A stretch of 51,928 nucleotides of DNA from a virus, in the IMG/VR virus record IMGVR_UViG_3300031857_018470, positions 1-51,928 of that record, one strand, 5' to 3'. This document shows, piece after piece, positions 878-50,910 of the stretch. Made by a program: the position numbers and the translations under genes. The notes under the pieces were generated by a model. The model had not been told where the DNA came from. It saw only the letters and a program-made list of their open reading frames with translations, and searched no databases. How positions within the stretch are numbered: the stretch's first letter is position 1; the number at the start of each line of letters is the position of its first letter.

Positions 878-1735
878 TTATTTAATTATGCCGGCTAATT
901 TTTGCATACGAATGAATGATTCATTCATTGATTCTTTAGTAGCTAATTTAGTAGCGGTAGCATACATTTTGGCTTTTTCTTCTTTAGACTTACCAAAGCT
1001 TTTAGATTTTTTCATAGATTTAACTATGTCTTCTTTCTTTTCTTTTTCAGCAGCTGTCATTTTTTTCTTTTTAATCTCAAATATAGCTTCTCCTTTTTTA
1101 AATCCAGGAATATATATTTTTAATACATCTTTCATTACTTCAGAAGTAAATTCTTCATCATTATTTTCTTCTTCAAAAGAAATAAAATTACTAGCTAACT
1201 CATCAGTACTAGCTTCACTATAATCCATACCGCTATTTGAAGTTTTAGCCATAAATTCTAAAAATTCTTTTTCTTGACCTGGGATAAGTTTACTGAGTGC
1301 TTTTAGCAGCATCTGCACTTTTGGATCAGAAGAAGCTTCTTCATATAGTGTACTTTCTTCTAACTCAGGCCCAGATGTTGGGTCAGCTGTGTATTCATCA
1401 ATTATTTCTTCATCTACATTATTATCTTTCATTTCTTCCATCTTAGGAGTATCTTTTTTATCCATTTTTTCAAGTAATTTTTTATACTTGGCCATGGATT
1501 TTTCAAGAAGTTTAATTTCAGATGTCATCTCTTTCATCTTACCTTTATCCATCATATCATGATAAGCTTCATCTAAACCTTCCATATTGAGTTTCTTCTT
1601 ACGAAGGTCAATAGCTTCTTGAGTTTTAGTCATTTTAGCTTCTAAAGCAGCTCTGTTGCCTGCTTCATCAATTTCACGGATATATTCTTGTATGGATTCT
1701 CTAATAAGTTGTCTAAGTTGGGTTATTTGATTCAT
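878..1735 (-). CDS. Charged coiled-coil protein with LIRE-type N-terminal tag (scaffold or internal protein?)
   Basis: 285 residues, very rich in Lys and Glu, with predicted helices and a coiled coil over about residues 30-110. The N-terminus QLRQLIRESIQEYIREID is an amphipathic helix of the type seen on many proteins in 4.8-13.9 kb. The C-terminus ends in MQKLAGIIK, echoing the MQKLAFGKI start of the protein at 8530-9045. Composition resembles phage scaffold or internal head proteins, but no family is recognised. A TATTTATAA motif lies about 20 bases upstream, and the terminator at 797-821 follows. Confidence 0.6.
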   Translation of the reverse strand: MNQITQLRQLIRESIQEYIREIDEAGNRAALEAKMTKTQEAIDLRKKKLNMEGLDEAYHDMMDKGKMKEMTSEIKLLEKSMAKYKKLLEKMDKKDTPKMEEMKDNNVDEEIIDEYTADPTSGPELEESTLYEEASSDPKVQMLLKALSKLIPGQEKEFLEFMAKTSNSGMDYSEASTDELASNFISFEEENNDEEFTSEVMKDVLKIYIPGFKKGEAIFEIKKKKMTAAEKEKKEDIVKSMKKSKSFGKSKEEKAKMYATATKLATKESMNESFIRMQKLAGIIK

Positions 1736-4805: not shown

Positions 4806-5177
4806 TTATTTGGTCTTACCCCATTTTTTACCTTTCCCTGGTTGCTTACATTGAGAAGGAGTTGGACGACATGACGGGTATTTAGAGCGTTTTTCACCCT
4901 CTTTTCTACCACATGCTTTGCATTTTCCGTCTCGACAAGTATTACAATCAACCCAACCACCTTCTTTACCAGGTGTACCTGAGCGTTTAAACCATTTATG
5001 AAGTGATTCGTCTTCTTTTATACCTTTCCAAATTTTACCTTGACGGCATCTAACTACAGCACCAGATTTATAAGCTGATGGTTTATCAAACTTACGGTCA
5101 GCTATACGTAAACATCTATCCCGTTTAGCTTTTTCTTCTAAAAGAAGTTGTTTAAGTATGTCTATAAGCTTAGTCAT
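4806..5177 (-). CDS. Basic Cys-rich phage protein with N-terminal tag
   Basis: 123 residues. The N-terminus LIDILKQLLLEEKAKRD resembles the shared amphipathic tag. The rest is basic with at least seven Cys: KSGAVVRCRQGKIWKG, then WVDCNTCRDGKCKACGRK and YPSCRPTPSQCKQ. I recall similar segments in other T4-like phages (DUF5872-like), unverified. A metal-binding, DNA- or capsid-associated role is possible. It is translationally coupled to the gene at 5177-5551 (shared base TAATG). Confidence 0.6.
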   Translation of the reverse strand: MTKLIDILKQLLLEEKAKRDRCLRIADRKFDKPSAYKSGAVVRCRQGKIWKGIKEDESLHKWFKRSGTPGKEGGWVDCNTCRDGKCKACGRKEGEKRSKYPSCRPTPSQCKQPGKGKKWGKTK

Positions 5178-5551
5178 TATATACCTATATTTAATAATTT
5201 AGGTTCAGCTTTAAATTTAATTACACCTCTAATTTTAGAAATATTATCAATAATTTGTTTAACAGTTTCTTCATCAAACTTACCCGCTTTTAAATAAGGA
5301 TAAGGATCAATTTTAACTGTTAAAATATTATAATCATGTCCTGGTGTAGGTAAATTTGGAGTATATTGTTTGGCGTCAATAGTGGTAACTCCAGTTATTG
5401 ATCTAATATCTGAGAGGATCTGTGTTTGTGTTTTGATGTATGTGTCTGTCACTAACAGACCATCAATTTTATAAAGCTTTGTAGCAGAATCCTCACGTAA
5501 TGTTTTACGTATTTCTTCCTTAATATATCTTTTAAATTCGTTTCGAGTCAT
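5177..5551 (-). CDS. Small tagged protein, ferredoxin-like fold predicted
   Basis: 124 residues. The N-terminal 20 (RNEFKRYIKEEIRKTLRED) are the charged amphipathic tag shared by several neighbours. The body alternates beta and alpha (ILSDIRSITGVTTIDAKQ, then YNILTVKIDPYPY, then IIDNISKIRGVIKFKAE) in a beta-alpha-beta-beta-alpha-beta order like ACT or ferredoxin-like domains. No function is recognised. It is coupled to both neighbours by one-base overlaps. Confidence 0.6.
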   Translation of the reverse strand: MTRNEFKRYIKEEIRKTLREDSATKLYKIDGLLVTDTYIKTQTQILSDIRSITGVTTIDAKQYTPNLPTPGHDYNILTVKIDPYPYLKAGKFDEETVKQIIDNISKIRGVIKFKAEPKLLNIGI

Positions 5552-5916
5552 TAGTTAAGACACTTTAATTTATATAAAGTTGAATTCACTAATGTTACCA
5601 TTTCATCTACTTGATTGTCAAGATAAGAATCAGTGATTCCTTGACGTAGATCACCTATAGTAGCACACAGTGCTTCAAAATATTGAATCACTTGTTGTTT
5701 ATTAGTATAGTTCATTAAAGCAAATCCAGTATATCCATTCATAATACCATATTTACCTTGATAGCTTTCTACAAAACCATCAATTAAATCTACAATACCA
5801 TCATAATAATCATTCAATGCTTTATGTTCAGCAAATGAATTAGTTTGCAAATGGAACACATGAGCCTGTGTTCTTGAATGCATTAAATAAGATACTAATT
5901 TTGAGCAATGTTCCAT
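5551..5916 (-). CDS. Ferritin/Dps-like four-helix phage protein (DUF5856-like)
   Basis: 121 residues, helical throughout. KLVSYLMHSRTQAHVFHLQT and FAEHKALNDYYDGIVDLIDGFVESYQGKYG match from memory a family in T4-like phages (DUF5856) with a ferritin/Dps-like helical pattern: a His pair and acidic residues in the first two helices. Iron binding is not demonstrated. It lacks the N-terminal tag of its neighbours. Confidence 0.55.
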   Translation of the reverse strand: MEHCSKLVSYLMHSRTQAHVFHLQTNSFAEHKALNDYYDGIVDLIDGFVESYQGKYGIMNGYTGFALMNYTNKQQVIQYFEALCATIGDLRQGITDSYLDNQVDEMVTLVNSTLYKLKCLN

Positions 5917-5917
5917 A

Positions 5918-6592
5918 TTACCAATATCCTGAGAATGTTGTTTTAAATCCTAATAATTTTGCATAACGAGGTAAGCGACAAGACCAATAACTAGGTTTTG
6001 TTCTATCTTTTTTATTAGCACAATCATGACGTTTAGCAAATGCTTGACGTGCTTTTGGATTGTTTAATTTAGCTCTTAAGCCTCCACCAGCCATACCAAA
6101 TGATACTTTTTTAACACCACCCCCAGGTTTACGAACATAAACATAGAATTTTTTAGATCCACCACGTTTTGGTTTACCTATAGCTGGTTGTTTTTTATCT
6201 TTAGCTTCATCAACCTCTTCCATTTCTAATAGTAAATCTAAAGGTACTACTTTATTTTCATACATTCCAAATTTACCTAAATCAGTTTCCGTAACTAATT
6301 CTTTATCTACATCATTTAAATGAATAGCTTTACTTTCATGTAATTTACGAGCTTCAGCCCATAAATTTAAAAATGCTTCTGAACCATAACGAAAAGTATT
6401 CTCAGTAACGGCTAATTTATTATCAATATGATATTGCATGTTTTCTGAGATGAGTGGTTTAGTTTCTAAACTTTCGTTTAAAACAGGACCAGGATTACCT
6501 ACATTTTCACATGAATGGCAGCCACAATTACATTTATCCTTTTTAGGAGGTGTAGCTAAAACTTCACGTATAAGTCGTTGTATTCTATTCAT
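5918..6592 (-). CDS. Tagged Cys-rich phage protein with basic C-terminal domain
   Basis: 224 residues. Residues 1-12 (MNRIQRLIREVL) are the shared tag. A cluster CNCGCHSC at 22-29 could bind metal. The middle is acidic and helical. The C-terminal 95 residues hold a conserved basic module (GKPKRGGSKKFYVYVRKPGG, then HDCANKKDRTKPSYWSCR) that I recall in T4-like marine phages. Such modules are found on head-associated proteins, but a role cannot be assigned. The start has TATTTATCA close upstream. Confidence 0.6.
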   Translation of the reverse strand: MNRIQRLIREVLATPPKKDKCNCGCHSCENVGNPGPVLNESLETKPLISENMQYHIDNKLAVTENTFRYGSEAFLNLWAEARKLHESKAIHLNDVDKELVTETDLGKFGMYENKVVPLDLLLEMEEVDEAKDKKQPAIGKPKRGGSKKFYVYVRKPGGGVKKVSFGMAGGGLRAKLNNPKARQAFAKRHDCANKKDRTKPSYWSCRLPRYAKLLGFKTTFSGYW

Positions 6593-6594
6593 GG

Positions 6595-6603
6595 TGATAA
6601 ATA
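6595..6603 (-). promoter_or_regulatory. Late-promoter-like motif TATTTATCA
   Basis: Sense TATTTATCA ends only 2 bases before the ATG at 6592. As a -10 box it would give a transcript starting inside the gene, so its role is doubtful. The opposite strand reads TGATAAATA. Confidence 0.25.
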
Positions 6604-7419
6604 TTATTTAGGTTCTATATAAATAACAAATCTACATCTAATTTTATTATCTTTACCTATAAAAAATGATTTACTATCTTCTGATGTTTTTCCTGTTAAG
6701 ATAGAAGACATTATAAATTTTTTAAGATCTAAAGTTTCTAAACCAGATTCAATTTGTTTAACCAGTACCTCTGATCCACCTGTTGATTCTATTTCATCTA
6801 CTATTTCATCACCTAGAGATAATTTACGCAACATTGCACTAGCAACTATCCTGACTTGAATATCATTAGATGAAGTATTAGTTACAAAAGCGTAGAATTT
6901 ATTAGGATCATCAGTGTAAAAGCTAGTTTGAAGTTGAGTATTAATTTTATTTCCTTGACTTGATTTTACCTCAACTATAGTTTTATCTCCAATAGTAATA
7001 TCCTCACCTTTACCTCCAATTTCTTTTGATTCTACGTTTTTAGAAATAGAATAATTTTTTAAAGCATTTTCTACTTCTCTTCCTTTATTAGATAAATCTT
7101 TATCTACATATTGTTTCCAATTTTGTATAGTATTAACAACATTAGGAAATACTTTTTTAATATCACCTAAATCATATTGTTCGTATGTTAATTTAGCTAA
7201 TTCAGTGTATGACTCTATTTTTGTAACTTTTTTATCTTTACTCACAGTGTCTTTTATAAGAGGATCTAATTCTGTTTCTTTATCAACTTCATTTAAATTA
7301 ACATTTAAATTTTCTAATAAATCAGCTAAAAGATTGATATCATGCTCATCATTTAAGTCAGGATATCCTTTAGGGAATTTATACGCGTATTTTTTAAAAA
7401 ATAAATCTAAACTATCCAT
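6604..7419 (-). CDS. Candidate PD-(D/E)XK nuclease-fold protein
   Basis: 271 residues. Residues 112-152 carry a restriction-endonuclease-like signature: GREVENAL (E116), KGED (D140), then IVEVKSS with the E150-x-K152 pair. This matches the E...D...ExK layout of the PD-(D/E)XK superfamily. A short beta-rich C-terminal half follows. A role in DNA cleavage or repair is inferred from the motif only. It overlaps the next gene by one base and sits among tagged proteins, although its own N-terminus does not show a clear LIRE tag. Confidence 0.55.
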   Translation of the reverse strand: MDSLDLFFKKYAYKFPKGYPDLNDEHDINLLADLLENLNVNLNEVDKETELDPLIKDTVSKDKKVTKIESYTELAKLTYEQYDLGDIKKVFPNVVNTIQNWKQYVDKDLSNKGREVENALKNYSISKNVESKEIGGKGEDITIGDKTIVEVKSSQGNKINTQLQTSFYTDDPNKFYAFVTNTSSNDIQVRIVASAMLRKLSLGDEIVDEIESTGGSEVLVKQIESGLETLDLKKFIMSSILTGKTSEDSKSFFIGKDNKIRCRFVIYIEPK

Positions 7420-7931
7420 TAGGCAGGAGTTTCTTCAGGAGTTTCTTCAGTTGGAGTTTCAGGGGATGGGGATTCTGGCGCTGGGCTTTCAGGAGCAGGT
7501 GCCTCAGCAGGTGCTTCTGATTTTTCTGGGGTTGGTCTTGCTCCATAAGATAAAATTCTAGCTATTGCTTCAATACAATTTTGTTCCTCATTTATATTCA
7601 ACAAATAATATTTTTTACCTTCTACTTTAGCAATCCAAGTTCTATCAGTATAAATTAAATAGAATACTTGATCATTAGCTAAAATAATACGAAATGTAGT
7701 AGGACGTGGAGCAACCCATTCAATGTCCTTTAAAAACAGTTCATATTGATCTGTTAGTAATTTTATTATAGTATCTTTAAGTGTAGGAAATTTAACTAGA
7801 ACAGGAAATCTTTCATTGTCTAATGAAATAGCGGAAGGACTGTCTATGTCAACCTCAGTTGATTTAGTTACATCTGAGTAAATAGATTTTACTAGATTTT
7901 TGATTTTATCTTTAAATTCGCTTTTAGTCAT
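7419..7931 (-). CDS. Tagged protein with proline/glutamate-rich C-terminal tail
   Basis: 170 residues. The N-terminus KSEFKDKIKNLVKSIYSD resembles the shared tag. The middle (about 40-130) is a small alpha/beta domain of unknown type. The last 35 residues are a low-complexity Pro/Glu/Ala tail made of repeats such as APESP and ETPTEETPEE, likely disordered or an exposed linker. It overlaps 7924-8322 by eight bases. Confidence 0.6.
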   Translation of the reverse strand: MTKSEFKDKIKNLVKSIYSDVTKSTEVDIDSPSAISLDNERFPVLVKFPTLKDTIIKLLTDQYELFLKDIEWVAPRPTTFRIILANDQVFYLIYTDRTWIAKVEGKKYYLLNINEEQNCIEAIARILSYGARPTPEKSEAPAEAPAPESPAPESPSPETPTEETPEETPA

Positions 7932-8322
7932 TGGATATAGATACTATATTTGAATAATCTTCCATAGTAAGAGTTTTACCTTGTTTAGATAACTCGATAA
8001 TATTTTCTGCTACTTTATGTAGATCCATATCAGTTTGAGCATCTTCCTTAGCAAATTCCATAATACGAATTAACAAAGGAATATCCAATGATGCGGTATC
8101 TATTGGATTTTCCTTTGCTGTGGGTTCCATTAAAGCTTTTTTAATGGCCTCTTTAATTCGGAGTTTGTTTTCTTTCATAGCTACAGATTCAGCTCTTTTA
8201 AAAGCTGCTCCGGTCATCACCTTTTCAGCATCGGCTCCATATTTTTCAACCCAAGAATCTTTATTTTTCTTGTATTGATCAAAAAATTGTTTTTGTAAGG
8301 CTAATACTCTTGGTGTTGGCAT
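7924..8322 (-). CDS. Hypothetical helical protein
   Basis: 132 residues, helical. A tag-like segment (LRIKEAIKKALMEP, about 54-67) lies inside the protein rather than at the end. It starts MPTPRVLALQKQFFDQYKKN and ends TMEDYSNIVSISND. No known family is recognised. The order next to 7419-7931 and the Hc1-like gene suggests a head-associated role. Confidence 0.5.
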   Translation of the reverse strand: MPTPRVLALQKQFFDQYKKNKDSWVEKYGADAEKVMTGAAFKRAESVAMKENKLRIKEAIKKALMEPTAKENPIDTASLDIPLLIRIMEFAKEDAQTDMDLHKVAENIIELSKQGKTLTMEDYSNIVSISND

Positions 8323-8496
8323 TTATTTTGCTTTTGCTTCGGCAACTGAGGCTTTGTTGTAAGCAGATATGAGTTTTTTCAACTCACTTAGTGCTTTACG
8401 TGCTCTTGCTTTTGCTGCTTTAGATTTGTCTTCGTGGTTTTCTTTCGCTGTTTCATACAACCCACTAATTTGTTCAAATAGTTCTTGAGTGTTCAT
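8323..8496 (-). CDS. Histone H1-like (Hc1-type) small basic protein
   Basis: 57 residues, lysine- and alanine-rich, all helix. The segment HEDKSKAAKARARKALSELK followed by KLISAYNKASVAEAK matches from memory the core of bacterial Hc1-type histone H1-like proteins. These are common in Bacteroidota and Chlamydia, with an N-KAA-x-RARKAL-x-x-L-K-K-L pattern. Such proteins bind DNA and help condense it. Start at 8496; stop one base from the ATG of the next gene. A role in genome packing or control of host DNA is inferred. Confidence 0.65.
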   Translation of the reverse strand: MNTQELFEQISGLYETAKENHEDKSKAAKARARKALSELKKLISAYNKASVAEAKAK

Positions 8497-8529
8497 AAAT
8501 ATTTAGTTTTTGATTAATTTTATTTTTGA

Positions 8530-9045
8530 TTAATATTCTTCACTAGCGGCATCAAATCCATCTCTATATCCTTCTTGATATCCAGTATCGTATCCACGAG
8601 TGAAATCTGCGCTTTCGTATTCCATTTCTTCTAAATTCTCAGCAACTGCTTGCTGCCCTACTACTTGTGTTCTAACAAGCATGGTAATAGTATTACCAAT
8701 TTGATTTACTAATTTTTCATCACCTAATGCTTTGGCATTAGCTAATGCTTTACTTAAAGAATCCTGGATTGCTTTAACTTTAGGATCAATATCAATTTCA
8801 TCGGTTGAAGTTGGTGCTAAAGTATCTTCAGCAGGAACCTCAGCGCTCATATCCACATCTACTACATCTTCTTGAGGAGCTACATCTGCTTCTTTTTTCT
8901 TTTTCTTGGCTTCACCTAATGTAGATTGTACTAATTCTTTAATTTTATTTCTAAGTTCAGACTCAGTTAAATTTTGAGAATTTAAACTTTCAGTAATAAT
9001 TTTACCAAAAGCCAATTTTTGCATGTGTTTAAATTGGTCGTTCAT
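8530..9045 (-). CDS. Acidic helical protein with two tag-like segments
   Basis: 171 residues. Two tag-like helices follow each other: QFKHMQKLAFGKIITESL and SELRNKIKELVQSTLGEA. Lysine-rich and then acidic linkers follow (about 44-85), then a helical domain, and a Tyr/Gly-rich C-terminus (RGYDTGYQEGYRDGFDAA). It may be an internal head or scaffold protein. TATTTATAA lies 14 bases upstream of the start. Confidence 0.55.
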   Translation of the reverse strand: MNDQFKHMQKLAFGKIITESLNSQNLTESELRNKIKELVQSTLGEAKKKKKEADVAPQEDVVDVDMSAEVPAEDTLAPTSTDEIDIDPKVKAIQDSLSKALANAKALGDEKLVNQIGNTITMLVRTQVVGQQAVAENLEEMEYESADFTRGYDTGYQEGYRDGFDAASEEY

Positions 9046-9059
9046 TTAAGTATATTTTG

Positions 9060-9068
9060 TTATAAATA
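9060..9068 (-). promoter_or_regulatory. Late-promoter-like motif TATTTATAA
   Basis: Sense CCATATTTATAAC, with the 9-base core ending 14 bases before the start at 9045. It lies in a 31-base gap after the gene at 9077-9649. The opposite strand reads TTATAAATA. Confidence 0.35.
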
Positions 9069-9076
9069 TGGAATAC

Positions 9077-9649
9077 TTATTGTTTCTTTAAACTTTGTAA
9101 ATATTTTATGGTTTCTTCTTTATTTTCTAATAATTTCTTTTTAGAAGAACCAACCCACTTTTCAATGTCACCTGCCTCTGTAATGAAAGACTCATTAGAG
9201 CCATTAATCATTTCATCTATCCATGTACTATAATCAACTATTAAACTATCTAGATCTGAGTTGATTATGTTTTTCTCATATTCTTCCCATAAACCTAGTT
9301 TACGAATATCTGTTTCAAAGTCAACCTGGCAATTAAAACAGCGCTTATATTGTATATAAAATAATTTGTCGTGCTTATTTTTCATTAAATTAGAGCAACA
9401 AGGGCAAAATAATGGTAAAGTTACCTCTTGTTTTGCTTTATCTAATTTAGTTATATTTTGTTTTATACCATTTTTAATAGTCCATTGTCTTCCATCTTCA
9501 TCCCATACATCTCCTTCCTCATGAAATTGTTGCTTTTTACTATAACCTACACCACCAACAGTTCTTTCACTTTGCTTACCTGTCATCAGGTTGCGAAGGC
9601 GTTGAACGTCAGCTGATTTGAAATCTTTTTTTAAAACGTTATCGGACAT
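9077..9649 (-). CDS. Zinc-ribbon phage protein, conserved hypothetical
   Basis: 190 residues. A zinc ribbon spans about 92-118: FCPCCSNLM and KRCFNCQVDF (C-x2-C ... C-x2-C). The N-terminal third includes ADVQRLRNLMTGK and a conserved VGGVGYSKK-type segment, which I recall in T4-like cyanophage hypothetical proteins. The role is unknown. It overlaps the next gene by 11 bases. Confidence 0.6.
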   Translation of the reverse strand: MSDNVLKKDFKSADVQRLRNLMTGKQSERTVGGVGYSKKQQFHEEGDVWDEDGRQWTIKNGIKQNITKLDKAKQEVTLPLFCPCCSNLMKNKHDKLFYIQYKRCFNCQVDFETDIRKLGLWEEYEKNIINSDLDSLIVDYSTWIDEMINGSNESFITEAGDIEKWVGSSKKKLLENKEETIKYLQSLKKQ

Positions 9650-10283
9650 TCTTTAATATTTTATTTAATTTTTCTCTTAATATACTATGCTCTTCTAATG
9701 ATTTTTGTCTTTCTAAATTATAATCTTTAGTTGGAGATAACTTAGCATTATTTAATATTTTAATAAGAATTGATTGATCTTTAGGTTCAAACTTTAAAGT
9801 TTTATCATCAACTTTAGTTGGATTTAAACTAGACTTAACTGCTTTTTCACCACTTGTTATAGCATAATATTTTTTAACTAAATCTAAATTATACCTAGAT
9901 CTTTCTGGGAAGAAAAATTCGATGGTGCCTGCGGCATCTTTTTTAGAGGCAGGTGTACCTTTAGCAAATCCACCAACTTCTTGAGCAATTTTTCTATATA
10001 ATTCTTTACCATTTTGTTTATATATTTCTCTGTTGGTTTGATAATTAGACCTACGATTTGGTTGATCTCCAAAAACACGTTTTTCAAGATCAGCTAACCC
10101 ACCAGATTTAGATACAAATGTACCACCTAAATTAGCAGGGTCATTTATAATATCTAATAATTGATCAGCGTTATATTTGTCTGATGTGAGGAGTAATTCA
10201 GTTTTGGCTTTTAATTTTTTTAAGCCACTTTCCTCTTCACCACCCTCTTCTTGTTCTCTTAATCTATATTTAAAGTTACTCAT
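9639..10283 (-). CDS. Tagged hypothetical protein
   Basis: 214 residues from ATG at 10283; the longer reading starts inside the HAD gene and is rejected because of the ATGA overlap here. The start MSNFKYRLREQEEGGEEE resembles the shared tag. The body is basic with no recognised motif, and the end is a Lys/Leu-rich helix (SILREKLNKILKNVR). The function is unknown. Confidence 0.6.
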   Translation of the reverse strand: MSNFKYRLREQEEGGEEESGLKKLKAKTELLLTSDKYNADQLLDIINDPANLGGTFVSKSGGLADLEKRVFGDQPNRRSNYQTNREIYKQNGKELYRKIAQEVGGFAKGTPASKKDAAGTIEFFFPERSRYNLDLVKKYYAITSGEKAVKSSLNPTKVDDKTLKFEPKDQSILIKILNNAKLSPTKDYNLERQKSLEEHSILREKLNKILKNVR

Positions 10284-10813
10284 AGTCCTAATGCTTTTAA
10301 GTCGTTTATAGTTTGTGATGTTGAAGTAAATAAAATACCTATACCTCCGGCGGCATTCCACTCATTAATAGTATCTTCACGGTCGTCAATAAGTATTTTA
10401 TTTTTACCGGAATAATCCTTTTTATTGCTCCTTTTTGCTAAAACTAATTTAGTTCCAGGTAAATTTTCCTGAGCCCATAATTTTTTACCATAACGAGATG
10501 AATAATCTTGTGAGGGTGCTGAAAGTAGTATTGGTTTATATTTTTGAATATAACTCCATAATGCTTTACCTTCTGGCATCCAAGGTATTTTTGCCCAAAA
10601 TTGAGCTCCTACTTGTGTAATAAGGTCCCAAAATTTATTAGTACCATATTTAGTCTCATAAGCTTTAGGGCTCATACCTCCAAATTCTTGAAATCGCTTA
10701 TCAAAGTCAGCTATTACACCATCCATATCACAATAAAGTGTATATTGTGAAGCGACAGCGGATTGCTCTTCCTCTTTTAATTGTTTATATATATCTGTTA
10801 ATTTATAACGCAT
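10280..10813 (-). CDS. HAD-superfamily phosphatase (5'-nucleotidase-like) with N-terminal tag
   Basis: 177 residues. After a tag-like start (KLTDIYKQLKEEE) comes HAD motif I YCDMDGV (D29, D31). Motif II is at LLSAP (S98), Lys is supplied by the AKRSNKKD segment, and motif IV is LIDDRED (D143, D144). This layout is closest to the small deoxyribonucleotidase (NT5C-like) group, which removes 5' phosphates from nucleotides. It may help redirect nucleotides for phage DNA. It overlaps 9639-10283 by four bases and 10803-12986 by 11. Confidence 0.75.
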   Translation of the reverse strand: MRYKLTDIYKQLKEEEQSAVASQYTLYCDMDGVIADFDKRFQEFGGMSPKAYETKYGTNKFWDLITQVGAQFWAKIPWMPEGKALWSYIQKYKPILLSAPSQDYSSRYGKKLWAQENLPGTKLVLAKRSNKKDYSGKNKILIDDREDTINEWNAAGGIGILFTSTSQTINDLKALGL

Positions 10814-12986
10814 TCTTAATTGAATCCTCCCAATTTCTAAAAATTATATTACCATTCAAATAAGCCTCTTTTTCCAACTCTAATAAATCACCATCCTCAT
10901 TAGTGTTAGTAGTATTAACATTTCCTAATCTACCCTCATTATCTTGAATACGATGAATCATTTCATGAGAGTAAGAACGTAATACATCTTTAGGGTGTCT
11001 ATTTAATGTATATAAGGTAATTGAACAATTAGTTGGATCATAATAAGCAGTTCTACCTAATATGTTTTCAGCGTTTTTAGAATCGTTATCTATAATTCTT
11101 AACTTAGGTAATGGTTTAATATTTAAACCCTGGTTAAGCATATACCTGGTTAATGAAACTAAAGCACTTTTAAAATCAGTAAGTTGTGAATGCATACACC
11201 CACAATCTTCATTAAGTTCAATTTTAGGGTCAGCAGTATAAAAATCCTTTTTACGCATTATAGTTTTAGCTATAATTTTATCAGTTAAATTAACTAATGG
11301 AATATTAATATTAGTTCTATTATCTGTTGCTACTACTTCTTTATATTTTGTAAGAAAATCTTCTAATTGATCTTTTTTACGAGCTAAACGCTTAAAAAAT
11401 CCAATAAGTTCAGCTGTTGATATAGGTTTAATATTTCTTGGGTCATTTAATCTGTCAAAAAAGTGATTAGAGAAATCAATATCTAATGGAGCTAATTCTC
11501 TATCAGCATAGTCTTCAACAGATTGTAATGATGATTGAGACATTTCATCAACAGTTGTTGAAAGAACTTGCTTATACTTTTCAGATGATATTCCGTCTGG
11601 GAGGAATGGAGTTATATCTTCATTATTTTTTAGTGCTTTTCTTAAATCAGTAGCGCTTAAATTTCCAGCAGCCTCATTATAGTTTTTAATAGTTACATTT
11701 TGAGGAACTCCCCCAAATCTTCCAAAATCTTCTTCTTTACCAAATACTGCTATATATTGTTGATTAGGATTATTTCTAAATAATTCATAAGCTGCGGCTA
11801 CAGGGCTTTGTGAAGGTACAGGTAAAGATGAATCATTTGATAATAATACCTTAACATTTGAGGGAAGTTTAACTAATTTAAAAATATTTAAACTATCTTC
11901 AGCACTTATAGGCATTTGATCTATAAGTTTTTCTCTATCTTTTTTAGTAGTACCACTAGGTTCAGTTTTTGGTGATACTAAAACAATTACTTCATCAGCA
12001 TCGGCTGCGGCTGCTTTAATCCTAGCTATGTGATCTTTATGAGGTGGTTTAAATTTACCTGGGAAGACAGCTATTGTTTTAGCAGACTCATCTTCTAAAA
12101 GAAATGGTTTTATTAATTCCATCACTAAAGAATTATGTTTTTCTTCTAAAGATGCTACTGTGTCTATAGCTTGTTGTTTTTTATCACCTTTTTCAGTACC
12201 TACTTCGGCATCTCCTATTCGTATGTTTTTCTTAAACATTCCTTTAAGACGATCTATTGATCTTCTATTTTTAAATTTCTTAACTTTAGATATGATAGTA
12301 TCGAATTTATCATTTTCAATATCAACACCTAAATATTTGATTATGGTTTTAATATCATCAAAACTATTTGATTTCCATATTTCTCTACCTTCATTTTTTC
12401 CTACAGGAACAATTCTTAAAGATAATGATGATGGATTTAAATTAAAATCATATTCTTCTCCTTCGCCCGGTTTTTCAATATTACTTATACTTAATTCTTT
12501 AAATAAATTTTCTATTTCTTTTTCGTTTAATTCTGTGAAAACAGCTTTAGTTAAACCTATAGCTAATACTTGTTCTTGAGCAGGTAAATCTAACATTTTA
12601 TATGTAAATTTACCTTCTTCTTTAGATACAGTTACAATATTATCTATTTGAACATATTCTCCTTCTTTACCTGCTATAGGATATAAAGTAGAAACTATAT
12701 TTCCATGTATAAAATATTTTTTATTCTTTTTAGGAATAACGGGTATTTGAGAAATTTGTTCTAAAGAACTGGCTAATTTTTGTTTAAGATCTTTTTTATC
12801 ACCTTCGGGAAATGAAACTACAATATCAATATCTCCAAAAATGTTTTTTTCGGGTCTAGAACGAACACCTGTAATACTATATGATGTATCTAATCCTAAT
12901 GGTTTTAGGACATTATCTCTATAGTCACGAATTGTGGCTTTTAAATTTTCTTTATTTATGCGTGATCCGCCGGCTGCTCCGCTCAT
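10803..12986 (-). CDS. Fusion: Pol-beta nucleotidyltransferase, NMN-adenylyltransferase-like domain, HEXXH zinc peptidase
   Basis: 727 residues in three units. First, about 30-130: a nucleotidyltransferase core with F-GDIDIVV (D52, D54). Second, about 303-470: a cytidylyltransferase/NMNAT-like Rossmann domain with FPGKFKPPHKDH (308-319) and LSATDLR (443-449), the H-x-x-H-like and ATP-binding motifs. Third, about 590-727: a zincin with HEMIH (674-678) and a likely third ligand in LELEKEAY (E706). Just before the second unit is MELIKPFLLEDE (289-300), which looks like the N-terminal tag of neighbouring proteins, now internal. Substrates are unknown. Confidence 0.7.
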   Translation of the reverse strand: MSGAAGGSRINKENLKATIRDYRDNVLKPLGLDTSYSITGVRSRPEKNIFGDIDIVVSFPEGDKKDLKQKLASSLEQISQIPVIPKKNKKYFIHGNIVSTLYPIAGKEGEYVQIDNIVTVSKEEGKFTYKMLDLPAQEQVLAIGLTKAVFTELNEKEIENLFKELSISNIEKPGEGEEYDFNLNPSSLSLRIVPVGKNEGREIWKSNSFDDIKTIIKYLGVDIENDKFDTIISKVKKFKNRRSIDRLKGMFKKNIRIGDAEVGTEKGDKKQQAIDTVASLEEKHNSLVMELIKPFLLEDESAKTIAVFPGKFKPPHKDHIARIKAAAADADEVIVLVSPKTEPSGTTKKDREKLIDQMPISAEDSLNIFKLVKLPSNVKVLLSNDSSLPVPSQSPVAAAYELFRNNPNQQYIAVFGKEEDFGRFGGVPQNVTIKNYNEAAGNLSATDLRKALKNNEDITPFLPDGISSEKYKQVLSTTVDEMSQSSLQSVEDYADRELAPLDIDFSNHFFDRLNDPRNIKPISTAELIGFFKRLARKKDQLEDFLTKYKEVVATDNRTNINIPLVNLTDKIIAKTIMRKKDFYTADPKIELNEDCGCMHSQLTDFKSALVSLTRYMLNQGLNIKPLPKLRIIDNDSKNAENILGRTAYYDPTNCSITLYTLNRHPKDVLRSYSHEMIHRIQDNEGRLGNVNTTNTNEDGDLLELEKEAYLNGNIIFRNWEDSIKNAL

Positions 12987-12987
12987 A

Positions 12988-13902
12988 TTAGATATTATCT
13001 GGTATGTATGCTCCTGCTCTCCTTAGAGCTTCTTTAAACATAGTTAATGTTTTTTCTTGGTCTTCAGGTTTAAGATTAGTTTTAATATAATTCACTAATT
13101 TATTATAGTTATTAATTATATCTAAAGTTAGTGGTTGTTTAGGTTTATATTCTTGATTTAATACTTCTAATGCTTCTTTAGGTTTATCAGCAATTGTTTC
13201 TCCAGTATTTTTACGTATAAATCCTCTACCGCTTTTAAAAGTATAACCTAAAGCAGCAAACATAGCTAACATTAATTGTCCTCTATGTAAACCTTTAATT
13301 TGGGGATTATCTTCAGGTAATTCAGAATTAAACCTAAATTTTAACCAATCCATATCACCAATATCTATATCTAATTGAGCTCTAGATTCTAATTTTTTAC
13401 CAGCGGTGTCATATTGAGGATACGAAAAATGAATTGATCCTGCGCCAGAAGCTTTGTCACTAGTGTGTAGATCTGTGGAACTTGAATTTATTTTATTAAC
13501 AATTAATTGAATTAATGATTTTAATTGAATTTGATCGTCTGCTGCTGAGCGCGCTGCTTTTTTATTTTTAGCATATAAAATATCATATTCATCTTGACTA
13601 ATACCCCAACCTTCAGTATCAGCTTGTCCGTTTTTAAAGAAATATTCAGCTGAGTAAGCTACATCTACATCACCGGATTGAGGTTTATTGCCTGTTGAGC
13701 CTAACCAATTACTTTTATCATTTAATGAATTAAATGTAGATTTTTTATTTGGAAAAATTTTACCTAAATCATCCACAAATTTTTTAATTGTTGGAGTTAT
13801 ATTAGCTAATAATATGTTTTCAGTATCGTATTCAGTGTTTTTAAATACATTACCTCCTTCATTAACAAATACTTCTCTTAAGAGTTTTACTAAAGAAATC
13901 AT
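12988..13902 (-). CDS. Pol-beta-superfamily nucleotidyltransferase with N-terminal tag
   Basis: 304 residues. The tag-like start is MISLVKLLREVFVNEGGN. The nucleotidyltransferase signature is GST (68-70) followed by GDVDVA (D78, D80), with a third acid in the RAQLDIDIGD segment (D178/D180). Such enzymes transfer NMPs to RNA, protein or small molecules; the target cannot be read from the sequence. It is the second nucleotidyltransferase in a row, one base from the three-domain fusion gene. TATTTATGA lies 12 bases upstream. Confidence 0.7.
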   Translation of the reverse strand: MISLVKLLREVFVNEGGNVFKNTEYDTENILLANITPTIKKFVDDLGKIFPNKKSTFNSLNDKSNWLGSTGNKPQSGDVDVAYSAEYFFKNGQADTEGWGISQDEYDILYAKNKKAARSAADDQIQLKSLIQLIVNKINSSSTDLHTSDKASGAGSIHFSYPQYDTAGKKLESRAQLDIDIGDMDWLKFRFNSELPEDNPQIKGLHRGQLMLAMFAALGYTFKSGRGFIRKNTGETIADKPKEALEVLNQEYKPKQPLTLDIINNYNKLVNYIKTNLKPEDQEKTLTMFKEALRRAGAYIPDNI

Positions 13903-27687: not shown

Positions 27688-29544
27688 TTATAATGAGACT
27701 ACTCTTCCTTGAATATCAGCTGATGGGTATTTAACTTCAAAAATCATAGGGTCAATTGAAGGATAAATTACACTATTTTTAGTAGCTCCAGAAATATCAT
27801 AAGCATAATCTGAGTATCCTAAACTAGAACCAACTAAATTTAGTATTTCTATATTTTTGACAGTTTGAACTCCTTCTATTTTATCTAATAGAATATAAAG
27901 ATCTCTTAGCATTATAGGTTGGTTTATTTGCCAGTTGTTTATATTAAAATAATCTTTTAAAACTTTTAAACAATTATTTAATACTTCGTTGTTTAAATAA
28001 TTAGGTAAAGTAATAATATCAAAATTAATTCCTATATTAATTATAAAAGCATCTTTAATATTAATAGCATCATTTATCATTCTATATTGAGAAAGATAAG
28101 TAGTTAAATTTTGCTTTAAAGCGTATGAAGCATAATTTAACTGTTTATTAACATCATATGTTAAAACATATAAATCTAAAATACCTAAATTAATATTAGA
28201 TAAATTATTTTGAATTTTAGTTGGTTCAATATAAGCTTTAGCTATTTCTCCATATTTAGCAGGCATAGATAATGCTCTTACTAAATAATCATCTTGAGTA
28301 ACATTTCTTTGTTGACTAGCGAAATTAACTGAGGAGTTTTGTCTTATTTCTTCAATTGAGTCTCCGTCGCCTCCCCCACTAGCTGCTGATGGATTGGTAA
28401 TAGCTAGAGAACTAAAAATAGAATTAGCTAAAACAGTATTTGTTAAATTTGGATTTAAAAATTGGATGTTTCCGTTTAGTCTAGTTAAAGTATTAGCCCC
28501 AGTATTGGCTGTTACTCCTCCTCCGGTTAAATATCTAAATGTTAATGTGGTATTTGAAGGAGCTATACCGTAAGTTTTTGTATATAAAAAATTAGAAGGA
28601 GAGTAAGCAGTAGTTAATTTAGTTTGTTCAAAAGGTAATCCTATACCTACATTATCTGGGTTAGGGATTATGATTTCATCTAAATCTGATACTATTCCTG
28701 CTCCAAACTGAATTTGAAGTGTTGTTGAATTTTTAAGACGAGTGGTAAATCTATATTGGGTTTTTTTAAGTTTTAATAAGTAAGGAGTATCTCCATATTG
28801 TGAGAGATTTGGATCATTAGTATTAGTATTTTTAATAGAATCATAAATCATTTCTTGACCTAAGTAATCTACTTCATACCATTGATTTCCTTCAGAATCA
28901 ACACAATCTAAAATACCTACTAAATTTGAAGTGTTAATTTCAATTGTTGAAAATTTAATTGGAGAATTAAATGAAAAAGATATTGAATTAATATTAGCTG
29001 ATATAGCTTTTCTAGTCTTTTTTAACAAAAAAGAAACAGGTATATTAGTAGATGTTACTTGAAAAATAGTTACATCTGTTGGATCATTAGAACTAGACAC
29101 TGTAAAATCTACAGCGTCATTTATTAAAAAACTTATACCTTGATCAGTTACAGCATTAGAATTAGGAGCTATATATAAAGCATAATCAAAATCAGGAATG
29201 TATGAACCCGCTGATATTTTGGCGGGAACTTGTTGGTAAAAATCAATATCTGTTATAGCTACTCCAGTGACATTAGGTTTATAGCCAAACATATATGCTA
29301 GTTCAAATAAATTATTTGATTGACGAGCAAATTGTAAATAATTTTCTTGAACTTGATTATCTAAATAAAATGATAAAACATCACCAACATACGCTGCCAT
29401 TTCAATAAATAGCATTCCTGGAGAGGCAGGACTAAAGTCATTATATGTTGTTGGATAATAAGTTTTAGTATAGTCTATAAGACTAGCTCTATATTCACTA
29501 AAATCTTTATTTATATATTTTATATTTCTGGAAACTATAGCCAT
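27688..29544 (-). CDS. Baseplate wedge protein, gp6-like (baseplate J family)
   Basis: 618 residues, close to T4 gp6 (660). The N-terminus (NIKYINKDFSEYRASLIDYT, ASPGMLFIEMAAYVGDVLSF, LYLDNQVQENYL-like segment) is the conserved start of gp6/baseplate J proteins. A C-terminal helical/beta part follows (INIGINFDIITLPNYLN, DLYILLDKIEGVQTVKNIEI). It builds the baseplate wedge ring in contractile tails. It lies 2 bases from the gp25-like gene, the order found in T4-like phages. Confidence 0.85.
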   Translation of the reverse strand: MAIVSRNIKYINKDFSEYRASLIDYTKTYYPTTYNDFSPASPGMLFIEMAAYVGDVLSFYLDNQVQENYLQFARQSNNLFELAYMFGYKPNVTGVAITDIDFYQQVPAKISAGSYIPDFDYALYIAPNSNAVTDQGISFLINDAVDFTVSSSNDPTDVTIFQVTSTNIPVSFLLKKTRKAISANINSISFSFNSPIKFSTIEINTSNLVGILDCVDSEGNQWYEVDYLGQEMIYDSIKNTNTNDPNLSQYGDTPYLLKLKKTQYRFTTRLKNSTTLQIQFGAGIVSDLDEIIIPNPDNVGIGLPFEQTKLTTAYSPSNFLYTKTYGIAPSNTTLTFRYLTGGGVTANTGANTLTRLNGNIQFLNPNLTNTVLANSIFSSLAITNPSAASGGGDGDSIEEIRQNSSVNFASQQRNVTQDDYLVRALSMPAKYGEIAKAYIEPTKIQNNLSNINLGILDLYVLTYDVNKQLNYASYALKQNLTTYLSQYRMINDAINIKDAFIINIGINFDIITLPNYLNNEVLNNCLKVLKDYFNINNWQINQPIMLRDLYILLDKIEGVQTVKNIEILNLVGSSLGYSDYAYDISGATKNSVIYPSIDPMIFEVKYPSADIQGRVVSL

Positions 29545-29546
29545 TA

Positions 29547-29957
29547 TTATTGTATAAATGTTATTTCAACTTGATCTGTTAAATTAGTATTAATTATACT
29601 ATATGATAATGAAACATTAATTTCATTATTATCTGGGGAGGAAAGAATTTCTAGATTTTCAATTTTTATATTATTAAAATAAAGATTTAATAAATTTTGA
29701 ATATCATTTTTAAGAAAATCTAAATTTCCTTGTACTATTTGTTCAAAAATAAAAGCTCGTAAATTAGCTCCGAAATTATTATTTAAATACCTTTCTGATT
29801 TATTAGTTAAGAAAAAATTTAATAAATTATTTCTAATAGCATCTTTGGTAGTATATGTGGTGAAAAATACAGCAGGAGCATTAAAAGGAATAGCTATTCC
29901 TATCCCAGTTCCTGGTCTAGTATCTAAAGGAGGAATTTGTTTTGCTCCGAAAGCCAT
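29547..29957 (-). CDS. Baseplate wedge protein, gp25-like
   Basis: 136 residues, the size of T4 gp25 (132). Segments TTKDAIRNNLLNFFLTNKSE and RYLNNNFGANLRAFIFEQI, then LDFLKNDIQNLL and LEILSSPDNNEINVSLSYSI, match the gp25/GPW family (lysozyme-like fold in name only, a sheath-initiator wedge piece). It binds gp6 in the wedge. One-base overlap with 29957-30313. Confidence 0.8.
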   Translation of the reverse strand: MAFGAKQIPPLDTRPGTGIGIAIPFNAPAVFFTTYTTKDAIRNNLLNFFLTNKSERYLNNNFGANLRAFIFEQIVQGNLDFLKNDIQNLLNLYFNNIKIENLEILSSPDNNEINVSLSYSIINTNLTDQVEITFIQ

Positions 29958-30313
29958 TATTTTTTATTTATTAAATTCATAATTTGATCTAAACCTAATT
30001 GTCCTTGTGGTAAAGAACTACCCTCAGACATAGTATTTACAGGACCACTTACTTTAAAATCTCCAGTAAATCCATTTTCAGGACCTTGAGCCATATTATT
30101 TAATATATCCATATATGACTGTTTAGTATTTATTGGAGATTTAGGTAAAGAATTAGTATTAAATGATAATGTTCTATCATCACTTACTTGATAAGATTCT
30201 TTAATAGGTTGTTTATTAGATTTAACTGCTTCTAATAAAATATTCTTTAATTCATCTTGGATGGCTTCTTTTACAGCCTCTTTAATAAGTTTTTTTAACG
30301 CGTCAGTTTTCAT
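29957..30313 (-). CDS. Tagged small protein upstream of gp25
   Basis: 118 residues. The N-terminus is a strong example of the amphipathic tag: KKLIKEAVKEAIQDELKN, then ILLEAVKSN. The body is Gly/Asn/Ser-rich without motif and ends GLDQIMNLINKK. It is the only tag-bearing protein inside the baseplate block. TATTTATAA lies 5 bases before the start. Confidence 0.55.
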   Translation of the reverse strand: MKTDALKKLIKEAVKEAIQDELKNILLEAVKSNKQPIKESYQVSDDRTLSFNTNSLPKSPINTKQSYMDILNNMAQGPENGFTGDFKVSGPVNTMSEGSSLPQGQLGLDQIMNLINKK

Positions 30314-39508: not shown

Positions 39509-39513
39509 ATTTG

Positions 39514-39599
39514 TACTCGGGGCGGGAATCGAACCCGCACTCTCTTTTAGGGGAACAAGATTTTAAGTCTTGCGTGTCTACCTATTCCACCACCCGAGC
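39514..39599 (-). tRNA. tRNA-Leu (anticodon TAA)
   Basis: 86 bases. Acceptor GCTCGGG/CCCGAGT, anticodon arm CAAGA-CTTAAAA-TCTTG with anticodon TAA, long variable arm, T arm GCGGG-TTCGATT-CCCGC. Class II layout as expected for leucine. CCA is not encoded. It reads TTA codons, the most AT-rich Leu codon and common in this genome. Five bases separate it from the atypical tRNA. Confidence 0.9.
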
Positions 39600-46505: not shown

Positions 46506-46919
46506 TTAATGAAATGGCTCCATAACTATATCCCTTATTTCCTCAAGATCGTGTTTTGTTTTGATAGCTATTTTATTAACAGTAATATTAATGCGGCGTT
46601 TGAAACAAGTAAATGTACGCTTCATTTGCCTAACATCCTCGGGCACTTCCGATGTTGTTATGAACCTAATTACTTTTGGTTTGATTACTTTATGTTCTTT
46701 ACATAATGTGAACCACAAGCTAAAGTTATGTGAGTTGTAACCAATCCATTGTTTGTTTTTTAAATCAAAGAATGCTAATTTACGAGTTATACCAGACAGA
46801 TCCTCTTCTACCGATGCTAGAATTGTATTTTCATCTATTCGTTTTAAAATAACTCGTTCTGTGTCCGTTAAATGAATTTTGGTTTCTGTTTCTAAATGTA
46901 AATTTTCTTTCTTATTCAT
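46506..46919 (-). CDS. Hypothetical protein
   Basis: 137 residues from ATG at 46919 (overlap of 8 bases with 46912-47142). LHLETETKIHLTDTERVILK, then DLKNKQWIGYNSHNFSLWFT and RQMKRTFTCFKRRINITVNK. Mixed alpha/beta. Last gene of the group starting at 47704. Function unknown. Confidence 0.55.
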   Translation of the reverse strand: MNKKENLHLETETKIHLTDTERVILKRIDENTILASVEEDLSGITRKLAFFDLKNKQWIGYNSHNFSLWFTLCKEHKVIKPKVIRFITTSEVPEDVRQMKRTFTCFKRRINITVNKIAIKTKHDLEEIRDIVMEPFH

Positions 46920-47142
46920 AGGTTTCGTTGTAGTATTGTTCAAATGTCTGCCAATTTTCTTCTGCTATACCCTTACCTTCAAATCTTCCTACTTGATGTG
47001 CGGTGTACCAACACTCTTGTTTCTGCTCCTTCTCCATCTGCTTGGCTTGGTCTTCCAATTCTTGAATTGTTTTGTATGGATATTTTTCAAGATTTTTAAT
47101 GTAATCAACTATCCATTCAACTGCGGTTTGTTTCTTTTCCAT
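46912..47142 (-). CDS. MEKKQTAxEWL-family protein, copy 1
   Basis: 76 residues. MEKKQTAVEWIVDYIKNLEK, then QELEDQAKQMEKEQKQECWY and a final EQYYNETYE. Same pattern as the three adjacent proteins at 50234-50910: start MExxxTxxxWL, central helix with QA(K/I)xMEK, and a terminal YYNxxY. The family is common in Bacteroidota phages from memory; function unknown. Confidence 0.65.
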   Translation of the reverse strand: MEKKQTAVEWIVDYIKNLEKYPYKTIQELEDQAKQMEKEQKQECWYTAHQVGRFEGKGIAEENWQTFEQYYNETYE

Positions 47143-47883: not shown

Positions 47884-47960
47884 TGGTGGGCCATCCTGGA
47901 TTCGAACCAAGCACCTTCGCTTTATGAGAGCGTCGCTCTAACCTACTGAGCTAAAAGCCC
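47884..47960 (-). tRNA. tRNA-Met (anticodon CAT), CCA encoded
   Basis: 77 bases. Acceptor GGGCTTT/ATGGCCC (one mismatch), D arm AGCTCAGTAGGTTAGAGC, anticodon arm ACGCT-CTCATAA-AGCGA, T arm CTTGG-TTCGAAT-CCAGG, then discriminator A and CCA. CAT may be Met or a lysidine-modified Ile; sequence alone does not decide. Confidence 0.85.
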
Positions 47961-50233: not shown

Positions 50234-50488
50234 TTAGGACTTATTTTCATAATTTTCATTCCAATATTGATAAAACAAATCATCAATTGATTTACCCATT
50301 TTGTCCTGGGTACGCATGAAGTGGATCAGCCTAACCATATGTTCTTGTTCCATTTGAATGGCTTGGTATTTTATCTTGATCATTTCCTTGGACATTTCAT
50401 TCAAGGTTATTTCATGTTGAAGATATGCTATTAGTTTATCGTCAAGGTTATCATATAACCATTTAACGGGTGTCTTATTTTGTTCCAT
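50234..50488 (-). CDS. MEKKQTAxEWL-family protein, copy 2 (divergent)
   Basis: 84 residues. MEQNKTPVKWLYDNLDDKLI, then IKIKYQAIQMEQEHMVRLIH, ending LFYQYWNENYENKS. Same layout as its neighbours, but the first residues differ (MEQNKTPVKWL). Overlaps 50475-50678 by 14 bases. Confidence 0.6.
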   Translation of the reverse strand: MEQNKTPVKWLYDNLDDKLIAYLQHEITLNEMSKEMIKIKYQAIQMEQEHMVRLIHFMRTQDKMGKSIDDLFYQYWNENYENKS

Positions 50489-50678
50489 ATACTTTATTAT
50501 AGTATTCCTCTACTGTTTTATAATGCAAACCAACTGCCCCATGTACCCATGAGTTAGCTATTTGGTCTTTTTCCATTTTCTTAGCTTGTTGTAATATAGC
50601 ATACCACTCAAATTTATCTTGTGGTGTGTCCATTAGGCGCTCAAATAACCATTCAGTTGCTGTTTGTTTCTTTTCCAT
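50475..50678 (-). CDS. MEKKQTAxEWL-family protein, copy 3
   Basis: 67 residues. MEKKQTATEWLFERLMDTPQ, then AILQQAKKMEKDQIANSWVH and a terminal YYNKVYGTK. Overlaps both neighbours (14 and 26 bases), so the three copies form one translational unit. Confidence 0.65.
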   Translation of the reverse strand: MEKKQTATEWLFERLMDTPQDKFEWYAILQQAKKMEKDQIANSWVHGAVGLHYKTVEEYYNKVYGTK

Positions 50679-50910
50679 CTATTTGTACCATTTCGTTAGT
50701 GTTAATAATATTGTTATCACTTACCTTACTTCCATAAGTTAATAATAGATATTCAGCAGTTAATCCTGTTGCTCTACTTTTCTCAACTATATCTATTATC
50801 TGTTGCTTCTCCCTTTCTATAGCTTGTTCTTGAATGTGAACAGGAATAAATTCCATATTCTTATGAATTTCTTCTATCAACCATTCTACTGCTGTTTGTT
50901 TCTTTTCCAT
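50653..50910 (-). CDS. MEKKQTAxEWL-family protein, copy 4
   Basis: 85 residues. MEKKQTAVEWLIEEIHKNME, then IQEQAIEREKQQIIDIVEKS. Its C-terminus is extended (NTNEMVQIDGKETNSN) and encoded in the overlap with copy 3, so the typical YYN end is lost. No promoter was found directly upstream; the terminator at 50931-50964 lies 21 bases before the start. Confidence 0.6.
   Translation of the reverse strand: MEKKQTAVEWLIEEIHKNMEFIPVHIQEQAIEREKQQIIDIVEKSRATGLTAEYLLLTYGSKVSDNNIINTNEMVQIDGKETNSN

Follow-up and report, generated by a model that had tools for sequence, protein, structure and literature searches.

Recurrent N-terminal tags on unrelated proteins of T4-like phages, probably capsid-targeting propeptides of the T4 type

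In phage T4, the internal proteins IPI, IPII and IPIII and the protein Alt carry a capsid-targeting sequence (CTS), a short N-terminal peptide on otherwise unrelated bodies that ends in L/I-x-E and is cut by the prohead protease gp21. Section 2.5 of PMC9026906 places the gp21 cut after the glutamate of L/I-x-E, and the portions of the T4 literature drawn on here also describe a short N-terminal propeptide of gp24 that is removed by gp21. According to PMC9026906, a Glu-to-Asp change in T4 IPIII stops processing and leaves targeting intact. In phages of the phiKZ/SPN3US type, the prohead protease likewise cuts head and ejection propeptides after Glu; the excerpts of the literature used give S/A-x-E as the phiKZ protease motif, and those of PMC5694885 describe identical N-termini on the diverged proteins gp53 and gp54. 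Most of these propeptides exceed 100 residues, unlike the tags described below. In P22 particles, loading has been engineered by means of scaffold fusions, in which the cargo enters carrying the binding end of the scaffold. The comparisons made here draw on parts of PMC9026906, PMC5694885, PMC10052503, PMC3012670 and PMC7077304. The open-access literature searched contains CTS work for T4, P1 and the giant phages, and none was found there for the phages considered here. A search for a virion proteome of a relative found none; the words 'immuto' and 'mass spectrometry' are absent from the excerpted text of the flavobacterial phage paper PMC7077304.

The DNA under study (the window) is the IMG/VR virus record IMGVR_UViG_3300031857_018470, 52 kb long (51,928 nucleotides); it ends before the head genes and is probably a fragment. 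Its baseplate proteins point to a T4-like phage, with the wedge protein encoded at 27688-29544 sharing 45% identity with its counterparts in Flavobacterium phage immuto and Microcystis phage Mel-JY01. The closest long relative is the record G003. Two tRNA genes, Leu(taa) at 39513-39599 and Met(cat) at 47884-47960, lie on the minus strand. The gene order of the window is that of immuto (primase, exonuclease, the homolog of 12988-13902, the homolog of 10803-12986, deoxyribonucleotidase, and so on), and in immuto this run is followed by the genes for terminase and portal, the core genes, and the genes for protease, scaffold-type protein and capsid protein. With the sole exception of 29957-30313, all tagged window genes belong to the run that leads to the head genes in immuto.

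A first-pass annotation of the window proposed that proteins of unrelated type share one amphipathic N-terminal tag, and read this tag as a capsid-targeting sequence. The N-termini that it quoted are present on nine minus-strand proteins (ten stretches, two of them in 8530-9045), given below together with two further features of these proteins.

1673..1735, minus strand: tag A of 878-1735, MNQITQLRQLIRESIQEYIRE
881..919, minus strand: tag-B-like C-terminus of 878-1735, SFIRMQKLAGIIK; the same motif ends the scaffold-type protein of relatives
5136..5177, minus strand: tag A of the DUF5872-like protein 4806-5177, MTKLIDILKQLLLE
5492..5551, minus strand: tag A of 5177-5551, MTRNEFKRYIKEEIRKTLRE; in homologs the tag ends in LSE before GS and in LNE before GY
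6563..6592, minus strand: tag A of 5918-6592, MNRIQRLIRE
7881..7931, minus strand: amphipathic N-terminus of 7419-7931, a doubtful member
8989..9045, minus strand: tag B of 8530-9045, residues 1-19, MNDQFKHMQKLAFGKIITE
8911..8961, minus strand: second, tag-A-like helix of 8530-9045, residues 29-45, SELRNKIKELVQSTLGE, before an AKKKK linker and kept across the family
10772..10813, minus strand: short tag-A-like N-terminus of the HAD 5'(3')-deoxyribonucleotidase (dNT) 10280-10813, MRYKLTDIYKQLKE
13858..13902, minus strand: tag A of 12988-13902, residues 1-15, MISLVKLLREVFVNE, with a predicted cut after Glu15, before GGNVF
12988..13857, minus strand: body of 12988-13902, putative polymerase-beta-like nucleotidyltransferase fold with a GS...GDxD motif
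30230..30313, minus strand: residues 1-28 of 29957-30313, an ambiguous tag-A-like N-terminus; the gene lies in the baseplate block

The proposal of a shared tag holds for most of these proteins, and two of the nine are doubtful. In 7419-7931 the helix is present, and L/I-x-E is missing from it in 9 of 11 listed close family members, the exceptions being L038 and L058 with LKE at position 8. The N-terminus of 29957-30313 is conserved in immuto gp114 and in G001, and its neighbour 29547-29957 is a baseplate wedge homolog. The idea of a single tag proved too narrow, as the tag is recurrent but two more types had been missed, together with the correspondence of one of them to the C-terminus of a scaffold-type protein. 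With a probability of about 0.8, the tags are read here as N-terminal capsid-targeting propeptides of the T4 type, serving both targeting and cleavage.

The three types are defined by distinct sequences. Tag A is MKKSELKQIIKEEI..LNE with looser forms, tag B is (MKKQILSE)EF.RMQKLAGIITES, in which ITES follows the scaffold-type motif, and tag C is M.(N)FDLKKFLVENKLT.NSRLLxE. All three end in L/I-x-E, and the canonical forms comprise 20-25 residues with two possible cleavage sites. Further tags were sought in 80 additional head loci and 52 cargo loci, and more were found. Over 2309 distinct proteins, tag A is present on 103 proteins whose bodies form at most 40 families, an upper bound because the terminase, a protease and proteins also counted under tag C are included; tag C is present on 29 proteins in 20 families and tag B on 18 in 12. 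By strict patterns, 11 proteins are tagged in immuto and 9 in G001, where a near-identical tag A precedes six unrelated proteins. The likeness to the T4 CTS thus lies in a short N-terminal peptide on unrelated bodies that ends in L/I-x-E, and the differences are three tag types on about ten proteins per genome (strict patterns) compared with about four proteins in T4, tags that are not MKTYQEFIAEA, and packaging that is predicted here from sequence.

The recurrence of the tags exceeds expectation in several counts. The pattern hxxhhxE, which was shaped after inspection of immuto N-termini, occurs within the first 24 residues of 6 of the 22 proteins at 1-14.8 kb of the window, against a mean of 0.8 in 300 shuffles (maximum 4). 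Over the whole window it is found in 11 of 85 proteins with 3.2 expected, and in the early region beyond 35.7 kb in 3 of 43 with 1.9 expected. Of the immuto proteins, 14 of 30 match at 101-129 kb, a region picked by eye in a genome already inspected, against 12 of 186 elsewhere (Fisher P 1.5e-7); the rate in internal segments is 3.6%. A cleaner test is provided by a profile trained on immuto alone and applied to two records not inspected before. In G001 it retrieves 14 of 219 proteins where 2.2 are expected (P 6.5e-8), and in G002 it retrieves 7 of 53 where 0.5 are expected. Its matches are not significant in G003 (2 of 53) and Mel-JY01 (3 of 230). In the window the profile retrieves 6 of 85 proteins with 0.8 expected, of which at least one (9077) is noise. 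Absolute scores of the profile are rough because the mixing weight saturated at 0.95 and the tag types were blended. Stricter anchored patterns find five instances of tag A in the window (0.11 expected) and one of tag B (0.00 expected).

A blind test that is free of any choice of region sets the N-terminal 22 residues of every protein in a genome against those of every other, drops pairs with related bodies and takes internal segments as the null. Look-alike pairs number 24 in G001 (null mean 1.4, maximum 4), 15 in immuto (1.5, maximum 4), 4 in the window (null 0.0), 3 in G002 (0.1) and 1 in G003 (0.1). Some of the pairs in immuto, G001, G002 and the window are signal peptides, small paralogs or chance, and the remainder are the three tags. 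Mel-JY01, which is among the nearest named relatives by its baseplate gene, has almost no tag signal; none of its four pairs (null 0.8) are tags. As a positive control, T4 yields four pairs (null 0.8) that consist of IPII/IPIII, the textbook CTS, and diverged GIY-YIG endonucleases.

These counts bear on the explanation that genomes of low GC content, with abundant K, E, I and L residues, simply yield many amphipathic N-terminal helices by chance. Tag A alone is degenerate, a plain amphipathic helix whose likeness can be incidental, as in the terminase large subunit of relatives, which begins with a similar helix. A helix match alone is no proof of a tag, since both the terminase and the baseplate-block protein match tag A as well. 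Matches are, however, far fewer in shuffles and internal segments, and tags B and C are specific sequences of which approximately zero copies are expected, so that chance is a highly improbable source of the pattern.

The ends of the tags carry a further regularity. The motif [ILV]xE lies in residues 13-28 of 0.70 of 139 tagged proteins against 0.32 of 1918 untagged ones, and the position of the tag-end glutamate is nearly constant: in the canonical tag A it is mostly Glu20, in tag B it is Glu22 or Glu17, and in tag C it is Glu24 or Glu25. Immuto examples of the tag end are IITE in gp083, LLKE in gp077 and LLLE in the dNT gp087. The gene 12988-13902 provides the clearest single case. Its homologs were counted in 49 of 52 loci (L015, L059 and L060 left out), and 48 of the 48 that show the site have Glu before GG(N/G)(V/I)F, with I, L or V two residues earlier; the number is 48 rather than 49 because L057 ends at a contig edge before the site. 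In the alignment of homologs Glu precedes GG in 27 of 27, and across homologs the length and sequence of the tag vary while the glutamate stays. The immuto homolog is untagged and starts exactly at M-GGNVF, with an in-frame stop upstream. In an AlphaFold (AF2) model of 12988-13902, residues 1-16 are the only segment with pLDDT below 50, and the body has a pLDDT of 86.4. The alignment of the body contains the invariant residues G68 S69 ... G77 D78 x D80; Foldseek places DNA polymerase beta among the top matches (best E 9.5e-4, low TM of about 0.3) and VIA-align gives Z 8.4 to TdT and AsfvPolX (rmsd 3.7-4.9 over 163-200 residues). These comparisons lend weak to moderate structural support to a polymerase-beta-like nucleotidyltransferase.

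Comparable boundaries are seen in other families of the window. Homologs of 4806-5177, which scores 26.6 bits to Pfam PF19197 with a cut-off of 27.5, vary ahead of a constant DRC body, with LLE before DRC in G003 and LSE before KKADRC in immuto. The homologs of 5918-6592 in immuto and L056 begin closer to the body, with a different sequence. The tag of 10280-10813 is short and degenerate and pairs with the 4806-5177 tag in the blind test; the body belongs to PHROG 2643 (E 3.8e-28), and in its tagged homologs the body is still preceded by L/I-K-E or L-L-E. Loading of this HAD enzyme into the head had been part of the original proposal, which is tempered by two relatives (L020:4672-7182 and L022:10913-13762) in which the dNT domain lacks its tag and is joined to the C-terminus of a homolog of 10803-12986; the dNT is accordingly not necessarily always cargo. 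The likely cargo of the window includes the deoxyribonucleotidase, the polymerase-beta-like nucleotidyltransferase, the DUF5872-like protein and several proteins without assigned function. Pfam searches with ten tagged proteins of relatives pointed to no clear function apart from NT5C and DUF5872, each scoring under its cut-off.

Other proteins were noted in passing. The protein 10803-12986 is multi-domain, with a nucleotidyltransferase-like start and a cytidylyltransferase/NMNAT-like middle, and its C-terminal part resembles immuto gp080, a separate tag-A protein (PHROGs 23027 and 14518 in both). The protein 6604-7419 is conserved and has no tag and no Pfam or PHROG match; its stretch GEDITIGDKTIVEVKSS recalls PD-(D/E)XK nucleases by eye. 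A small protein of immuto with a tag-A-like start, gp093 (L003:3366-3806), has motifs that look kinase-like by eye (GEGDYGAVF, IIDV) and no Pfam match.

The tags are exchanged within one family and, in the case of tag A, appear to be maintained as peptides. In the family of 8530-9045, the same C-terminal domain follows tag B in the window, G003, L018, L023, L038 and L058, follows tag C in L041, L048 and L051, and is preceded by neither in G001, G002 and L021. Most members have a conserved tag-A-like helix between the tag position and the C-terminal domain. A tag may also be retained between the domains of fused proteins, for example in G001 17154 and L022 19563. The six tag A copies of G001 use different codons at 78 of 185 shared residues, with 78.3 expected if the copies were independent (15 pairs, mutually non-independent). 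Codon choice as random as this indicates selection on the peptide, and the G001 copies look like old copies held together by such selection. This result bears on the explanation that the shared leaders arose by recent duplication of DNA, or form a nucleic-acid element close to the start codon, and are not selected peptides. Some copies of tags B and C within one genome do look recent because of their high DNA identity (90% for tag B in G001, 85% for tag C in L056); the codons of tag A in G001 speak against this explanation, and as a general account it is scarcely credible.

A gp21-type protease encoded elsewhere in the genome had been named as a check on the capsid-targeting proposal. The window stops before the head genes, and the protease was found in relatives that reach them. 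In immuto, gp070 matches the head maturation proteases of PHROG 207 (E 6e-53), a protease of its type occurs in three of eight relative records, including G003, where it lies beyond the head genes, and IMG/VR contains homologs in at least 589 relatives. The blocks GELDHP, SSRG and WDFVS are kept in five of the proteases. A scan for Pfam PF03420 gave zero matches in the window record and likewise in 14 control genomes, and is thus uninformative. Sites that match the tag ends are present in the head proteins themselves; in 59 of 69 distinct protease N-termini the body is directly preceded by [LIVM]xE[SGAT], and KQ[LIVM]xE ends the capsid propeptide in 21 of the 21 capsid proteins found through the N.AKQ anchor. 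In the relatives, the protease and the head gene order (portal, core genes, protease, scaffold-type gene, capsid protein) are further points of likeness to T4. A rule that the core gene adjacent to the protease ends in tag A, as hinted by G002 and G003, was rejected, with 1 of 54 distinct neighbours above the 99% threshold.

The gene between the protease and the capsid protein is called scaffold-type for its place and acidic make-up, and lacks a clear match among the PHROGs. At its C-terminus stands [RH][MW].xLAG[IL]. Among 1060 distinct proteins from 80 head loci, this motif is C-terminal in 45, elsewhere in 1 and N-terminal in 0, with 1.7 expected from shuffles, and 39 of the 40 C-terminal cases printed are the scaffold-type gene. 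The same 80 head loci contain no N-terminal tag B. In sequence, tag B is the scaffold-type C-terminal motif placed at the front of the cargo.

The position and the ends of the tags also weigh on a reading in which they direct proteins uncut to another structure, such as baseplate, tail or membrane. The placement of 29957-30313 and its homologs in the baseplate block would suit such a destination. Most tagged genes are situated instead upstream of the terminase, portal and protease genes, the tag finishes with a gp21 site whose position hardly varies, and tag B equals the scaffold-type C-terminus, which together make this reading very unlikely. A closer competitor is that the tagged proteins are building blocks of the prohead core that are consumed during maturation, with targeting and cleavage but no injected cargo. 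The protein 878-1735, with tag A at one end and a scaffold-like end at the other, and tagged genes of the core region, such as immuto gp072, are compatible with core blocks, and the text of PMC9026906 drawn on here describes T4 gp22 and gp67 as cut to fragments. Several tagged bodies are, in contrast, enzyme-like or compactly folded, for example the dNT and the polymerase-beta-like protein, and core blocks are considered an unlikely general explanation.

Capsid targeting with cleavage therefore remains the preferred reading, as the original proposal had suggested, on account of recurrent tags on unrelated bodies, L/I-x-E ends and a gp21-type protease in the relatives that reach the head genes. 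The tagged proteins are probably packaged in the head and lose their tags there, as happens in T4, with a larger number of proteins involved. During head assembly, the tags would attach to the prohead core or to the inner shell and so carry unrelated proteins into the prohead, with at least three tag types (A, B and C) serving the same job and tag B working by imitation of a scaffold-type C-terminal end. Cleavage by the gp21-type prohead protease, directly behind the glutamate of the L/I-x-E at the tag end, would next release the cargo within the head, and the cargo could then reach the host together with the DNA. Binding partner, packaging, cleavage in the virion and injection are what we infer from these patterns, with injection of cargo into the host placed below targeting and cleavage in confidence. 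The arrangement resembles a variant of the T4 CTS system with three interchangeable tags, one of which is apparently common with the scaffold-type protein, on many more proteins.

A more specific version of this reading, held tentatively and at somewhat less than even odds, is scaffold mimicry. A large exchangeable set of host-directed proteins would be loaded by means of the shell- or core-binding end of the scaffold (tag B) or of the equivalent tags A and C, so that scaffold, protease and cargo obey one assembly code; the protease would dismantle the scaffold and release the cargo, also from fusions that contain a tag. The P22 system is engineered, and tag B would be a natural case of the same principle, at the N-terminus. 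If the capsid-targeting reading is right, the head contents of a widespread phage group could be read from sequence, with any gene that carries tag A, B or C a candidate for a delivered protein. Dozens of genes without known role would become candidate early host-takeover or counter-defence factors, and the tags would add three new labels with which foreign proteins could be directed into phage heads. The cultured isolate immuto offers a platform in which the choice of head contents by the phage could be tested.

The anchored pattern of tag A, which was built without T4, also matches 2 of 279 called T4 proteins, gp24 and the product of gene 61.1, and has no match to IPI-III or Alt. The matching propeptide of the vertex protein gp24 is MAKINELLRE. 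While gp24 is a shell protein, the tagged proteins described here have no capsid-protein likeness in the family searches made. The product of T4 gene 61.1 (L078:18966-19130) starts with MKTFKEFIKE, of which the first seven residues are those of IPI; this common MKTFKEF start raises the possibility that it is an overlooked CTS protein.

Another set of like N-termini lies in the early region of the window. Four small genes (46912-47142, 50234-50488, 50475-50678 and 50653-50910) begin with MEKKQTAVEWL or close forms, and similar small genes occur in G001 at 131387 and 131608. These genes are probably paralogs and not bearers of head tags.
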